This document shows, piece by piece, positions 3,056 through 26,548 of a stretch of 64,000 bases of DNA. This DNA comes from Picosynechococcus sp. PCC 7117 (GTDB taxonomy: Bacteria; Cyanobacteriota; Cyanobacteriia; Cyanobacteriales; MRBY01). The translations under genes were made by a program, and so were the position numbers. Under the pieces are notes generated by a model, which was given only the letters and a program-made list of their open reading frames with translations, searched no databases and was not told where the DNA came from. The stretch lies in NCBI RefSeq assembly GCF_001693275.1, contig NZ_CP016482.1, positions 62,001 to 126,000 on the forward strand, in the 5' to 3' direction. Numbering within the stretch: the first letter of the stretch is position 1; each line of letters starts with the position of its first letter.

Positions 3056-5254
3056 ATGCCTTTAAAAACTAGCTCTACCGCTGTTACGACGCCAGCAGAC
3101 AAAGCAGGGCTAGGTATGTTCGGTGGGGTCTTTACCCCTTCGCTGCTGACCATTTTGGGGGTGATTATGTACCTCCGCTTTGGTTGGGTAGTTGGCAATG
3201 TCGGTCTTTTTGGCACATGGCTGATTGTCACGATGGCTGTGAGCATTACCTTTCTGACGACGTTGTCAATTTGTGCGATCGCCACTGATCGGGTCGTGCG
3301 AACTGGTGGCGCTTATTTTATGATTAGCCGCTCCCTAGGGATCGAGACCGGAGGAGCCGTAGGGATTCCCCTCTACTTTGCCCAGGCGCTGTCAGTTGCA
3401 CTTTATACCATTGGATTTGCCGAAAGCGTTGTCAATGCCTTTGGCCGCTTCAACCAGACTTACATTGCCCTAATTGTCACCATTCTTGTGGCAGTATTAG
3501 CAATTACCTCAGCCGAAATTGCCATCAAAGCCCAGTACTTCATCATGGCGATCATCGCCTTATCGCTTGTTTCCCTAGCTTTCGGTTCACCACTGGAAGC
3601 AACTCAGCTAGAACCCTGGGGTACGGATAGTGGCGAATCTTTCTGGACAGTTTTTGCCGTCTTTTTCCCAGCCGTGACCGGAATTATGGCCGGGGTTAAT
3701 ATGTCCGGCGATCTCAAAGAACCGACAAAGGCAATTCCTACAGGTACATTGGCAGCCGTCGGCGTTGGTTACTTGATCTATATGGCTCTGCCTTTTTTTC
3801 TTGCCACTCGAGCCGATGCCAGTACGTTAGTTGAAAATCCCCTAATTATGCAGCAGATCGCCTTTTGGGGGCCATCAATTCTGTTAGGCATTTGGGGAGC
3901 GACATTATCGAGTGCTATCGGTAGCATTTTAGGTGCCCCCCGGATTTTACAAGCCTTGGCAAGGGACCGCGTCTTACCGCGATGGCTAAGCTTCCTAGGC
4001 AAAGGCAGTGGTCCTAATAACGAACCACGCATCGGCACAGCGATCACCTTAGGGATCGTCACAGTAGCGGTCATGGTGGGTGATTTAAACTTAATCGCAC
4101 CAGTGCTGAGTATGTTTTTTCTCACAACCTACCTAGTACTCAACATTGCCGCTGGCGTTGAAGGATTTCTCGATAGTCCCTCTTTTCGCCCTCTATTTGC
4201 GGTGCATTGGTCTTTCTCGCTGCTTGGGGCTCTCGGATGTTTAGCGGTTATGTTTTTAATTAATCCAGTGGCGACCATCGTTGCTGGGTTAATTGTTGCG
4301 ATGATCTTTTTGTGGATTCAGCGACGGGAGTTAAAGAGTACTTGGGGAGATGCCCGTCGCGGTATTTGGATGATGCTGTTGAGAACAAGCTTATTTCAAC
4401 TGGGTCATCACCCCGATCCGAGAACATGGCGGCCCCATATGTTAGTTCTTTCTGGTGCACCAACGCGGCGTTGGGGATTAATCGAATTAGCAGATGGGTT
4501 AAATCGCAATCGGGGCCTGTTTACCATTGCAAGTATTTTGCCGATGGATTCTCGCAGTATCCGTCAGCAGCAGCAAATGGAAAAGAGCATTAATGATTAT
4601 CTGCAAGAGCGAAATATACAAGCATTGGTCAGAGTCTTGACCGCCCAAGATCCATTTGTGGGCGTGGAGCGGCTTGTTGAAATTTATGGCCTTGGCCCCA
4701 TCGTGCCTGATACAGTCCTCCTTGGTAATAATGAAACCCCCGAAAATCGCAGTAGCTATTGTCAGCTTATCCATGCACTGCATCGCGCTGAGCGTAATGT
4801 GATTATCTATCGAGAGAAATCTCAGCCCGAAAGTAAGCAGCATCATCAAATTGATGTTTGGTGGGGAGGTTTGCACGCTAATGGTGCACTGATGATGATC
4901 TTGGCAGAGCTACTGCGGGACAGTATGGAATGGCGTAGCGCTCAAATTTATTTGAAGCTAGTGGTGCCGGATCAATCAGCCGCAGCAACTGCCAAACAAA
5001 ATATTAATGTCCTGGTACAAACGCTTCGCATTGATGCAGAGATTTGTATCTTGGTGGCAGAAGGTCGATCATTTGATGAGATTTTGTCTGAGTCTTCGCG
5101 TAATGCAGATCAAGTCATCCTCGGTATCGCAGAACCGAACGAGAATTTTTGTGATTACTATGCCTCCATTGAAGAGAGAATCCATGATCTACCATCTACA
5201 ATGTTGGTTCTTGCTGCACCAAGCTTCGCCTTTGCTGAAGTCCTAAAAAAGTAG
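3056..5254 (+). CDS. Cation-chloride cotransporter family permease (SLC12-like)
   Basis: A 732-residue inner-membrane transporter. Residues ~20-420 hold about 12 hydrophobic segments, starting with the family hallmark GMFGGVFTPSLLTILGVIMY and including GVNMSGDLKEPTKAIPTGT, typical of Na-K-Cl and K-Cl cotransporters of the APC superfamily. The C-terminal ~300 residues are soluble (LVLSGAPTRRWGLIELADG; ILGIAEPNENF) and match the SLC12 regulatory domain, which has a universal-stress-like fold. I chose the ATG at 3056 because it begins just before the conserved core; the frame extends upstream to a TTG at 3002 with no ribosome-binding site. Expected role: coupled K+/Na+ and Cl- movement in osmotic balance. 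Confidence 0.85.
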   Translation: MPLKTSSTAVTTPADKAGLGMFGGVFTPSLLTILGVIMYLRFGWVVGNVGLFGTWLIVTMAVSITFLTTLSICAIATDRVVRTGGAYFMISRSLGIETGGAVGIPLYFAQALSVALYTIGFAESVVNAFGRFNQTYIALIVTILVAVLAITSAEIAIKAQYFIMAIIALSLVSLAFGSPLEATQLEPWGTDSGESFWTVFAVFFPAVTGIMAGVNMSGDLKEPTKAIPTGTLAAVGVGYLIYMALPFFLATRADASTLVENPLIMQQIAFWGPSILLGIWGATLSSAIGSILGAPRILQALARDRVLPRWLSFLGKGSGPNNEPRIGTAITLGIVTVAVMVGDLNLIAPVLSMFFLTTYLVLNIAAGVEGFLDSPSFRPLFAVHWSFSLLGALGCLAVMFLINPVATIVAGLIVAMIFLWIQRRELKSTWGDARRGIWMMLLRTSLFQLGHHPDPRTWRPHMLVLSGAPTRRWGLIELADGLNRNRGLFTIASILPMDSRSIRQQQQMEKSINDYLQERNIQALVRVLTAQDPFVGVERLVEIYGLGPIVPDTVLLGNNETPENRSSYCQLIHALHRAERNVIIYREKSQPESKQHHQIDVWWGGLHANGALMMILAELLRDSMEWRSAQIYLKLVVPDQSAAATAKQNINVLVQTLRIDAEICILVAEGRSFDEILSESSRNADQVILGIAEPNENFCDYYASIEERIHDLPSTMLVLAAPSFAFAEVLKK

Positions 5255-24487: not shown

Positions 24488-26089
24488 CTATGCCAAATCA
24501 TCCTGGGCAATCATTTGGATCAAGCGTGGCATCGTCGGATCAAACCCTCCTAAATCCCATGACAAAGGATCTTTTGGATCAACCAAACTCAATTTGTAGG
24601 GGGCCAGGGTCACATAAATGGCCTTGACATTAGGGTTTAATTTGCGGCGATATTCCGCCAGTTTTTGGCAGGGTTGCGTGCCCGCCCAGGATTCGCAATC
24701 TGTCCAGAAGCAAATTACATCGGCATGAAAGCGATGTTTAAGCGCCCATTTGTAGACAGAGGAAGCATCGGTGCCGCCGAAATTTTGATCACTCGTTTTT
24801 TGTAAGGCCGTGCGGAAACTATCGCTGGCGGTAATGCCTAGATCTTTAAACGCGGTAGAAAAGCCACGAATGGCATAATTTTTCTCGGCTTTTGCGGTGA
24901 CCAGGGCCATGGTTGCGGCTATCTCGGCACAGGTTAAATGGACAGAACCCACAGAGTAATAGGACATCGACCCCGACACATCCACCGCATGGAGAAACGT
25001 TTTCCCGGTGGCAGGCACTGTTTCAAAGGACATCTCCAGGGCTTTTTCGAGGATGTCGATAATGCGGGGTACAGGTTCCCAGGTTTTTTTGCTGCGCCCC
25101 AATCGACCCCCAGATTGATAGGTTTTTAGGGCTTTGAGGATGTCAATGGGATGGATGCGACCTTTGCGCAAGCGTTGTTTATCGTTTAAAACCATCGCCA
25201 CGTGCTTGAGGTTTTTCTGGCGGTTGACCCGCAATACCCCAATTTCGGTTAGGGAACCCAGGTTCCGTAACAGGGCACCAATGGGCATCTCCAGCATCAA
25301 CAGTTTCCAGGTCTGCTCATCCATTTGACCAATGGGGGCGACCATTTCGTGGGTAAGGTGGCCTTGGGCGATCGCCTTTTTCGTTTGGTCGGGGTTGCGT
25401 TTTAGCCATTCGTACCACCAAATTTGTTCAAGGGCAGTTGCAGGGGGCTGTTTCGGTAACTGCTCCCAACCGTTAATGACCCAGTTATACAAGGTTTGAT
25501 GCTCGACACTTGGGGGTTTAACGTGGAATAAACGCAACGCATCCCGGTGGCTAAACCCGTACCGTTGTTGATACTTCAGCAGTTGGTAGGCCAAAGCTTG
25601 CACATCGTCCTGACTGAGCCAACCTTTACCACACTCACGCACCACTTTTCCGAACCCGCGCAGGGCCTTGGTATAGCTTAACCATTCATAGAAATGGCTC
25701 CCGGTGCGCACCACCTGGGGAAAGATTTTCATAAATGCCTGTTTCGCTGCTGGGGTTTCCCCCATGGATAACAGCGTTAATGCATATAAAGGGGCGCTAT
25801 TGTTGAGCGATCGCCCATCGCTCGCATAGAAAATTTCCTGGGCGACCCGGCCTGGATCCGCCACCACGCACTGCTGCACAACCTGGGTAAACTCACCCGT
25901 CAACTCATGTTTATCAGCATAAAAAGTATTTTGGGCGGTACCGATTAACAAACAGCGCCGTAACATGACCCAAATCCCCGGATCGAAGTGATAACCACCG
26001 GCTCGCCCCTGCACCATTTCTGTCGCTCGACCCGGAATTGGTTGCGATTGGGGCGTTTGGCCACGGGCTGTAAAAAATTGATATGACAT
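24488..26089 (-). CDS. rsr: Ro60-like TROVE domain RNA-binding protein
   Basis: A 533-residue orthologue of the Ro60 autoantigen / bacterial Rsr. Residues ~10-340 are the TROVE (HEAT-repeat ring) domain, with GRAGGYHFDPGIWVMLRRCL, ASDGRSLNNSAPLYALTLLS and HPIDILKALKTYQSGGRLGR. Residues ~360-525 are a von Willebrand A domain with the metal site HAVDVSGSMS, FGGTDASS and FWTDCES. Ro60 rings bind misfolded RNA and Y RNAs and can act with PNPase. GGAG lies before the ATG. Three tRNA-like genes end 57 bp upstream on the same strand and are probable RNA partners. No RtcB ligase is seen in the window. Confidence 0.93.
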   Translation of the reverse strand: MSYQFFTARGQTPQSQPIPGRATEMVQGRAGGYHFDPGIWVMLRRCLLIGTAQNTFYADKHELTGEFTQVVQQCVVADPGRVAQEIFYASDGRSLNNSAPLYALTLLSMGETPAAKQAFMKIFPQVVRTGSHFYEWLSYTKALRGFGKVVRECGKGWLSQDDVQALAYQLLKYQQRYGFSHRDALRLFHVKPPSVEHQTLYNWVINGWEQLPKQPPATALEQIWWYEWLKRNPDQTKKAIAQGHLTHEMVAPIGQMDEQTWKLLMLEMPIGALLRNLGSLTEIGVLRVNRQKNLKHVAMVLNDKQRLRKGRIHPIDILKALKTYQSGGRLGRSKKTWEPVPRIIDILEKALEMSFETVPATGKTFLHAVDVSGSMSYYSVGSVHLTCAEIAATMALVTAKAEKNYAIRGFSTAFKDLGITASDSFRTALQKTSDQNFGGTDASSVYKWALKHRFHADVICFWTDCESWAGTQPCQKLAEYRRKLNPNVKAIYVTLAPYKLSLVDPKDPLSWDLGGFDPTMPRLIQMIAQDDLA

Positions 26090-26145
26090 GACAACTCCGT
26101 CCCTCGCGGGATAACAACTTTAGATCAAAACCCCATGCGGGGAAG

Positions 26146-26269
26146 GGAGACGAGCCGGAATCGAACCCGCATCTCGGCGGACAAAAGGGAGATTCGTCCA
26201 TAGCGATAACCTTTAGTCCTGCGGCCCCTAAGGGCAAATATTGCGCTCTACCATTGAGCTACCGTCTCC
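26146..26269 (-). ncRNA. tRNA-like RNA 1 with anticodon-arm insert (candidate Y RNA)
   Basis: Read on the minus strand. Acceptor GAGACGG pairs with TCGTCTC (one G.U), with an extra 5' G that can pair with C73, as in tRNA-His. The D arm is GCTC-AATGGTA-GAGC and the T arm GCGGG-TTCGATT-CCGGC has one G-G mismatch. No CCA is encoded. The anticodon arm is replaced by ~70 nt containing hairpin GCCC-TTAG-GGGC, then CGC, 11 nt and TTATCG (the core shared with RNAs 2 and 3), and a second stem GGACGAA / TTTGTCC. No standard anticodon loop is evident. It lies 57 bp upstream of the Ro60 gene. Either an intron-bearing tRNA or, more likely, a YrlA-like tRNA mimic. Confidence 0.6.
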
Positions 26270-26293
26270 AGGTTTGACATTTTTCTAAATGGG

Positions 26294-26400
26294 GGGACAG
26301 GGAAAGACTCGAACTTTCGACCCGATAATCTTGATACGGCGACCCGTTGGGGTAAAAAAATTGCAGCAAGAATCTGCTCTACCAACTGAGCTACCTGCCC
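26294..26400 (-). ncRNA. tRNA-like RNA 2 lacking a normal anticodon arm (candidate Y RNA)
   Basis: Acceptor GGGCAGG pairs with CCTGTCC (one G.U). D arm GCTC-AGTTGGTA-GAGC and T arm GAAAG-TTCGAGT-CTTTC are perfect. No CCA is encoded. In place of the anticodon arm there is a ~50-nt extension: helix GAT+TCTTG pairs with CAAGA+ATC across a TT bulge and encloses hairpin ACCC-CAAC-GGGT followed by CGC. The core GGGTCGC, 10 nt, TTATCG matches RNAs 1 and 3. Excising the insert at the RNA 3 position leaves no anticodon loop, so this one looks like a tRNA mimic rather than a decoding tRNA. Confidence 0.6.
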
Positions 26401-26421
26401 AAGTCATTTAGGAAAAGATCG

Positions 26422-26548
26422 TGGCGAACGGAGGAGGAATCGAACCTCCATCTCCCGCTTAACAGGCGATAACCCTGAATTCAGCGACCCTTACGGATAA
26501 ATAAATGAATCAGGGAAGATTGGTGTTTTGCCATTAAACTATCCGTTC
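26422..26548 (-). tRNA. tRNA-Asn(GUU) interrupted by a 53-nt insert
   Basis: Acceptor GAACGGA/TCCGTTC, D arm GTTT-AATGGCA-AAAC and T arm GGAGG-TTCGATT-CCTCC pair perfectly; discriminator G and CCA are encoded (26425-26422). The anticodon loop CTGTTAA (anticodon GUU) is canonical for tRNA-Asn. The 5' half of the anticodon stem is split: CC at 26523-26522, then 53 nt (26521-26469), then CGC. Joining them gives CCCGC, which pairs with GCGGG, and a complete 74-nt tRNA. The insert holds helix CCCTGATTCA / TGAATTCAGGG and the core GGGTCGC, 11 nt, TTATCG. It is too small for a known group I or II intron. Confidence 0.72.

Follow-up and report, generated by a model that had tools for sequence, protein, structure and literature searches.

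The Ro60 locus and its three tRNA-like RNAs

The window, that is, the whole stretch of 64,000 nucleotides analysed in this study, belongs to contig C6, which is 264,782 bp long, in a Picosynechococcus genome of 3.43 Mb. Three Picosynechococcus plasmids match its 2,301-base Ro60 region, most closely pAQ7 of PCC 7002, a tractable laboratory strain, at 98.2% identity. Ro60 is a ring-shaped RNA chaperone. Its gene (TROVE/vWA_Ro60) occupies 24488..26089 on the minus strand, and the product matched the Pfam TROVE and vWA_Ro60 models; phmmer returned Rsr (2nvo; 2.3e-69) and Ro60 (entries 1yvp and 9nen), with 5.6e-67 for Xenopus Ro60. In the phmmer alignment, counted by hand, the equivalents of Xenopus K170, R174, and H187, which we take to be residues with a role in RNA binding, are conserved. 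The first-pass annotation, which placed a Ro60 gene 57 bp downstream of the RNA genes on the same strand, was correct, and the Pfam and phmmer matches confirm a true Ro60. In the PLSDB annotation of the pAQ7-type plasmid the gene is named TROVE domain protein, and the RNA array region carries no listed gene in a table that leaves out RNA genes.

Upstream of Ro60, the genes run in the order RNA3, RNA2, RNA1, Ro60, all on the minus strand, with few differences in the three RNAs among the four strains compared. RNA3 (26426..26548, minus strand) is a Y-armed tRNA-like RNA of the five-armed form with a 7-bp acceptor, scoring 105.5 bits with the model R2, which was built from 50 sequences including RNA3 itself. 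Its stems are fully paired (acceptor 7/7, T 5/5, D 4/4), and GCCA follows directly at 26422-26425. The extra arm, here called the Y arm, extends over 26467..26515 (minus strand) and comprises both strands, a tetraloop hairpin, and the sequence through UUAUCG, as placed by the core alignment and by a match of 1.6e-11 to the core model R1, of whose training set it is a member. The anticodon loop CUGUUAA (26459..26465, minus strand), with the anticodon GUU, is closed by the stem CGC-CUGUUAA-GCG.

In RNA2 (26294..26400, minus strand; Rfam tRNA 44.7 bits), the Y arm (26323..26370, minus strand; R1 match 1.6e-5, also a training-set member) substitutes for the anticodon arm. RNA1 (26146..26268, minus strand; Rfam tRNA 37 bits) has a strand-swapped form: besides the lower Y hairpin GCCC-UUAG-GGGC (26224..26235, minus strand), a downstream strand CCCUUUUGUCC (26179..26189, minus strand) pairs with GGACUAAAGG of the conserved strand, both by sequence and in the minimum-energy fold, and thus forms the upper Y helix, at the tip of which lies the anticodon-like loop CUAUGGA (26197..26203, minus strand). 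RNA2 and RNA1 are outside the R2 training set and scored 56.4 and 49.5 bits with that model; R1 gave no match to RNA1 in the search of its own genome. The Rfam tRNA model matched RNA3 only partially, at 27.5 bits under the 29-bit cut-off, whereas RNA1 and RNA2 exceeded it. Compared with shuffles, the minimum-energy folds had z values of -1.81 (RNA1), -0.84 (RNA2, no better than shuffles), and -2.91 (RNA3). ARAGORN called no tRNA in the window and likewise left the Y-armed units of loci L031, L034, L044, and L054 uncalled. No clear parent for RNA1-RNA3 emerged among 29 of the about 42 tRNAs of the same genome.

The annotated tandem of three tRNA-like genes with a common core upstream of Ro60 was borne out, the succession of hairpin, CGC, 10 or 11 nt, and TTATCG being present in all three. 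RNA1, RNA2, and RNA3 have three different architectures. In the common form, the insert is not an enlarged anticodon loop: it is a separate arm between the D arm and the anticodon arm, and TTATCG is the 5' strand of the anticodon stem, as in the RNA3 stem given above.

Scans of the window locus for promoters and for terminators found none. By eye, a possible weak terminator, CCCC-GCAU-GGGG-UUUU, lies in the gap between RNA1 and Ro60 (26127..26142, minus strand), which the terminator scan did not call.

Structure and conservation of the Y arm

Structure counts were taken from MAFFT alignments. In 64 cores from Ro60 loci, 94.1% of the cells of the 14-pair arm were paired, compared with 36-59% in slid controls. 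The covariation of the hairpin, read from the three RNAs alone as a sign of selected RNA structure, goes beyond chance in this larger set, with 72 doubly changed cells versus 16.7 in shuffles; one of five measures, further pair types, equals the shuffles (78 of 500).

The conserved strand of the arm is about GGYCGAnGAAUUGAGGGUUAUCG and its partner strand UCCUUrUUC...CUUGYC, with a small-loop hairpin between them. In the lower arm, a 4-pair helix is followed by a bulged C and by two further pairs, U-G and U-A; the facing strand has a larger bulge. Human Y RNAs have GGUCCGA and UUGAC in common. The cyanobacterial module appears to share with vertebrate and Deinococcus Y RNAs a conserved strand (helix, bulged C, GA) and an opposite strand with CUUG, but it differs from them in being an internal tRNA arm with reversed strand order and a shorter lower helix. 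The vertebrate Ro60 site, as given in an excerpt of PMC4726728, is a 7-bp helix with a single bulged C and a 3-nt bulge opposite; compared with that description, the bulged C and the opposite bulge are common to both, whereas here there are 4 pairs rather than 7 and the bulge is larger. The insert is an extra arm that resembles the Ro60-binding stem of Y RNAs, alike but not identical.

Distribution among cyanobacteria

A protein search yielded 31 cyanobacterial Ro60 loci, 25 of which hold at least one core (one of them, L061, with a Ro60 fragment only). Among the six core-less loci, L056, L058, and L059 begin at a contig end and L055 and L057 hold a 5'-truncated Ro60; the true exception is L052 of Hyella patelloides, where an intact Ro60 with the leader element described below has no recognised Y-armed unit in about 3.7 kb upstream.

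We then ran R1 and the Ro60 protein against the same 386 cyanobacterial genomes. R1 had been built from cores adjoining Ro60; some of these came from species that were also searched, and its sources include some of the 31 genomes with a full Ro60 described below, so that its recovery of cores beside Ro60 is not independent, whereas their near-absence elsewhere is. Cores elsewhere may be missed, since few candidates (14 per genome) were scored with strict filters. A core was found at E<=0.01 in 38 genomes, and a Ro60 at 1e-10 in 38. Of these Ro60s, 31 have full or nearly full length at 67-100% identity, and cores adjoin them in all 31 genomes, which represent 22 genera in the sample (Fisher p about 6e-45, shared ancestry ignored). 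The other seven Ro60 genomes, five with a divergent or partial Ro60 (G021, G038, G041, G044, G125) and two with short fragments (G030, G358), had no adjoining core.

Of the 96 R1 matches at E<=1e-4, 75 lay upstream and 19 downstream of Ro60, on its strand and within 1.7 kb (14 weaker matches excluded); the remaining two were far from Ro60 (G141) and in a genome without Ro60 (G048). With 150 candidates scored in the genome of the window, R1 found no core away from the Ro60 locus. Outside the 31 genomes, matches at E<=0.01 occurred in seven: by eye, G383 resembles a decayed locus that lacks Ro60, the core of G048 looks degenerate, and the other five (G217, G082, G152, G248, G363) are near the chance expectation (0.01 x 386 = 3.9). 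The covariance search beside TROVE genes proposed in advance as a check of the annotation was positive in 31 of 31 genomes with a full Ro60, with one match at E<=1e-4 outside them.

Two core patterns and one Ro60 scan found no carrier among viral contigs; Ro60 is present in 339 phage records, in each case at less than 60% identity.

Two loci deserve separate mention. In Prochloron didemni (L044, 767-3958), eleven units matching R2 lie in the 3.2 kb before Ro60, and by eye the D arms of some resemble those of Leu or Ser tRNAs. G141, which also has a normal locus, holds a further architecture at a site far from Ro60 (L132; G141:C3:861366-861426, minus strand), where a Y module and then a long hairpin come after a tRNA-like sequence.

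The tRNA body and its variants

Of 176 core hits, 141 could be framed as tRNAs; the 35 others include some cut at locus ends and some false hits, and a few framed units are visibly misframed (L035, L041 3456, L051, L099). A perfect 7-bp acceptor together with a 5-bp T stem was present in 128 of the 141 framed units and U8 in 136, in a framing that demanded at least 6 acceptor and at least 4 T-stem pairs and favoured U8. In 72 framed units the Y arm sits between the D arm and the anticodon arm. Fifty of these have a 7-nt anticodon loop closed by three pairs, and the other 22 miss the strict anticodon stem. In the 50 strict units, U33 and a purine at 37 each occur in 49, neither having been a selection criterion, with 22 anticodons; the closing pair varies among C-G, A-U, U-A, and G-C, the pairing itself having been selected for.

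The 34-pair full-length structure is paired in 98.1% of 1699 cells across these 50 five-armed units (40-54% in slides), which were picked partly by acceptor, T, and anticodon pairing. Doubly changed cells numbered 208 versus 52.2 in shuffles, with changes on both sides in all six helices; further pair types were no better than shuffles (72 of 500).

The remaining forms were sorted by eye. About 14 are strand-swapped like RNA1; in about 12 a separate hairpin precedes the arm, which sits in the variable region; and three or four have the arm in the D loop. About 16 short units have no D arm, and about 14 of these are found downstream of Ro60. Short Y RNAs of this kind keep the acceptor and the T arm; in many genomes they lie just 3' of Ro60, as at L034 5657, at L053 5658, and near 3140-3170 in several of L097-L118, and they are perhaps a second class.

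An extra G-1:C73 pair was found in 63 of the 74 U1-A72 units, giving an 8-bp acceptor stem, and in 55 of the 65 units starting with UG. The Y-armed units share with tRNA (Rfam RF00005) the acceptor, D, T, and usually anticodon arms with U33 and purine 37, but differ from it in a fifth arm of about 45 nt and an acceptor that is often 8-bp. Held against an elongator tRNA, which has four arms and a 7-bp acceptor, they depart in the fifth arm and the eighth pair (63/74); a closed 7-nt anticodon loop is found in 50 of the 72 candidates, with U33 in 49 of the 50, and is lacking in RNA2.

These features bear on whether the units could be working translation tRNAs, with the extra arm letting Ro60 monitor or protect them. 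The anticodon loops do follow tRNA rules at U33 and purine 37 and across 22 anticodons, G37 is present in 12 of the 14 loops whose anticodon ends in G, and CCA directly follows one base in 28 of the 141 framed units (52 by a looser rule). However, the genome of the window has ordinary tRNAs, including Asn-GUU, A34 occurs in 9 of the 50 loops (AGG, AAA, ACC), and 3 of the 50 would read stop codons (UUA, UCA). As the eighth acceptor pair and the missing anticodon arm of RNA2 also speak against translation, we consider this reading improbable.

Relation to YrlA and other RNA families

At Rfam 15 cut-offs, tRNA was the sole family matched in the window and in 29 of the 31 related loci (L056 and L059 lay outside the scan). 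The annotation's statement that the insert matches no established RNA family therefore holds at these cut-offs, with YrlA sub-threshold, and its more general view of Ro60-linked tRNA mimics with an unrecognised structured insert is supported by these scans together with the linkage in 31 of 31 genomes. A tmRNA is a tRNA mimic with RNA added between its arms; no cut-off match to tmRNA occurs here, with sub-threshold fragments only, in 3 of 7 loci.

YrlA (RF02553; Salmonella, Mycobacterium smegmatis) shares with the present family its place beside Ro60 and the combination of a tRNA-like D/T/acceptor module with a Ro60-binding stem. In the Rfam YrlA model structure, the tRNA part is permuted and the acceptor is closed, and an excerpt of PMC8394870 describes the large stem of YrlA as made by the RNA's own 5' and 3' ends. 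In the present family, by contrast, the predicted ends lie in the acceptor stem of a tRNA in normal order, a small loop closes the Ro60-type stem, and many units also have an anticodon arm. The family thus has the tRNA-like module of YrlA, but the ends, judged from sequence, pair in the acceptor stem and not in the Ro60-binding stem.

Sub-threshold YrlA matches spanned neighbouring units in the window (31.7 bits) and in L041 (40.5 bits), compared with a cut-off of 69 bits, and weaker ones occurred in 4 more of the 7 loci scanned; the cut-off was reached in none of 40 genomes. YrlA was accordingly rejected as the identity of this family. Weak matches far from Ro60 were ignored, because 12 of 14 control genomes also match below the cut-off. 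RNAs of YrlA order beside a divergent Ro60 in the same phylum also fell under the cut-off (G038, 42.7 bits; G044, 38.4 bits), and that of G044 has, by eye, a similar conserved strand, GGGCCGAAAG. At this G044 locus (L139; G044:C179), the divergent Ro60 adjoins both the YrlA-order RNA and a cluster of seemingly ordinary tRNA genes. Matches that span units are expected if YrlA and the Y-armed tRNA are circular permutations of one fold.

The same matches could also mean that the real products are YrlA-like RNAs, each composed of one unit's 3' half and the following unit's 5' half, and 9 of 53 neighbour pairs could indeed form all 7 acceptor pairs (RNA3 with RNA2 could form 6). This is very unlikely: every match is under the 69-bit cut-off, acceptor pairing averages 6.98 of 7 within units versus 5.08 across neighbours in the 53 pairs (within-unit pairing having also been used in framing), and loci with a single recognised unit occur (G008; L035), each in whole tRNA order.

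Still less probable is that tRNA precursors lose the Y arm as an intron and are then ligated by RtcB. The insert lies in the anticodon region, and RtcB was found in 31 of 31 genomes with Y-armed tRNAs versus 96 of 355 others (Fisher p about 7e-17, ancestry ignored), a co-occurrence weakened by its confounding with ancestry. However, the site of the arm varies (between the D and anticodon arms, in the D loop, in the variable region), which leaves no single splice site, the conserved Y strand continues into the anticodon stem, and its sequence, conserved in the manner of a Ro60 site, is linked to Ro60. That the units are functionless tRNA-derived repeats or pseudogenes, as their tandem copies, varied copy number, and some damaged units might suggest, is scarcely credible given the pair changes on both sides in all six helices and the occurrence in 31 genomes and 22 genera of the sample, linked to Ro60.

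The Ro60 leader

The leader of the Ro60 mRNA in the window contains the element UUAUCCC-GCGA-GGGACGGAG (26095..26114, minus strand), which resembles the lower Y hairpin and lies over the Shine-Dalgarno site. At most loci, an element UUGCC-N4-GGC-Y-GG(G)AG of the same likeness stands just before Ro60, again over the Shine-Dalgarno site. It was present in 46 of 57 leaders, some of which represent one locus from two sources, whereas in the same loci 151 of 5814 windows on the plus strand and 135 of 5814 on the minus strand contained it, as did 214 of 11400 shuffles, all counted with a regular expression written after the leaders were seen. Of the 11 misses, about eight are near variants by eye, the start of L106 is misplaced, and L045 and L116 are without the element.

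In 29 distinct leaders, some with a hand-set register, 94.3% of cells were paired, and 14 were doubly changed versus 4.4 in shuffles; two pairs only change on both sides, which is not above shuffles, and a one-column slide still pairs 75.3%. The proposed hairpin is absent from the minimum-energy fold of the 51-nt leader of the window (z 0.32). Locus-by-locus agreement of the leader element with the Y arms at the variable pair was also considered and was dropped as inconsistent by eye. As a copy of the lower hairpin over the Shine-Dalgarno site, the element suggests that Ro60 may autoregulate its own translation.

Proposed mechanism and possible function

The sequences establish that the family exists, how it is built, and that it lies beside Ro60. 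We hold with high confidence that these RNAs are cyanobacterial Y RNAs, each a tRNA in normal order, with its ends in the acceptor stem, that carries a predicted Ro60-binding Y stem as an additional arm capped by a small loop. The Y-armed tRNAs are, in other words, probably Y RNAs with an order reverse to that of the known bacterial ones. We did not find this putative form, a normal-order tRNA with a Y arm, described in the literature searched, which held no report on cyanobacterial Y RNAs; the main Y RNA papers lie outside it, so a prior description is possible. If true, this explanation would provide cyanobacterial Ro60 with its Y RNA partner and give an unpermuted tRNA-Y fusion with a real anticodon loop, which bears on why bacterial Y RNAs mimic tRNAs.

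In the proposed mechanism, the Y-armed RNAs would be transcribed and processed as tRNAs, and the outer surface of Ro60 would bind the Y arm. Enzymes that handle tRNAs would recognise the tRNA body, in which a real anticodon loop is often present, and Ro60 would thereby be brought to tRNA-like or damaged RNAs, or gated, in RNA repair and decay under stress. In RNA repair, a possible role of these RNAs would thus be to steer Ro60 to substrates that resemble tRNAs; RtcB, as given above, is present in 31 of 31 of the genomes. Once the Y-armed tRNAs are saturated, free Ro60 may bind the look-alike over its own ribosome-binding site and so lower its own synthesis.

Several observations from the literature touch on this proposal. 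According to an excerpt of PMC6424891, a TROVE gene of Chlorogloeopsis is strongly induced by erythromycin, and an excerpt of PMC11423583 reports that TROVE and RtcB genes rise together in coculture. Hughes et al. suggested, in an excerpt of PMC7790460, that YrlA might act as a competitive inhibitor of an anticodon nuclease; Y-armed RNAs with real anticodon loops would suit this idea. A bolder joint reading, tentative and in our judgement rather doubtful, would take the Y-armed tRNAs as a Ro60-bound set of false tRNAs, each with its own anticodon, that serve as bait or substitute substrates for the cutting or mending enzymes of anticodon loops. Ro60 would sense the number of free ones and set its own synthesis through the leader copy, and YrlA and the Y-armed tRNA would be two circular permutations of one tRNA-plus-Y fold.

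The RtcB genes do not adjoin Ro60 at the places listed, and in the genome of the window RtcB is on contig C1. At the locus of G383 noted above (L134; G383:C1:2448123), apparently decayed upstream and downstream units have no Ro60 match, and the RtcB match of this genome contains five internal stops, perhaps a joint loss of the Ro60 locus and RtcB.
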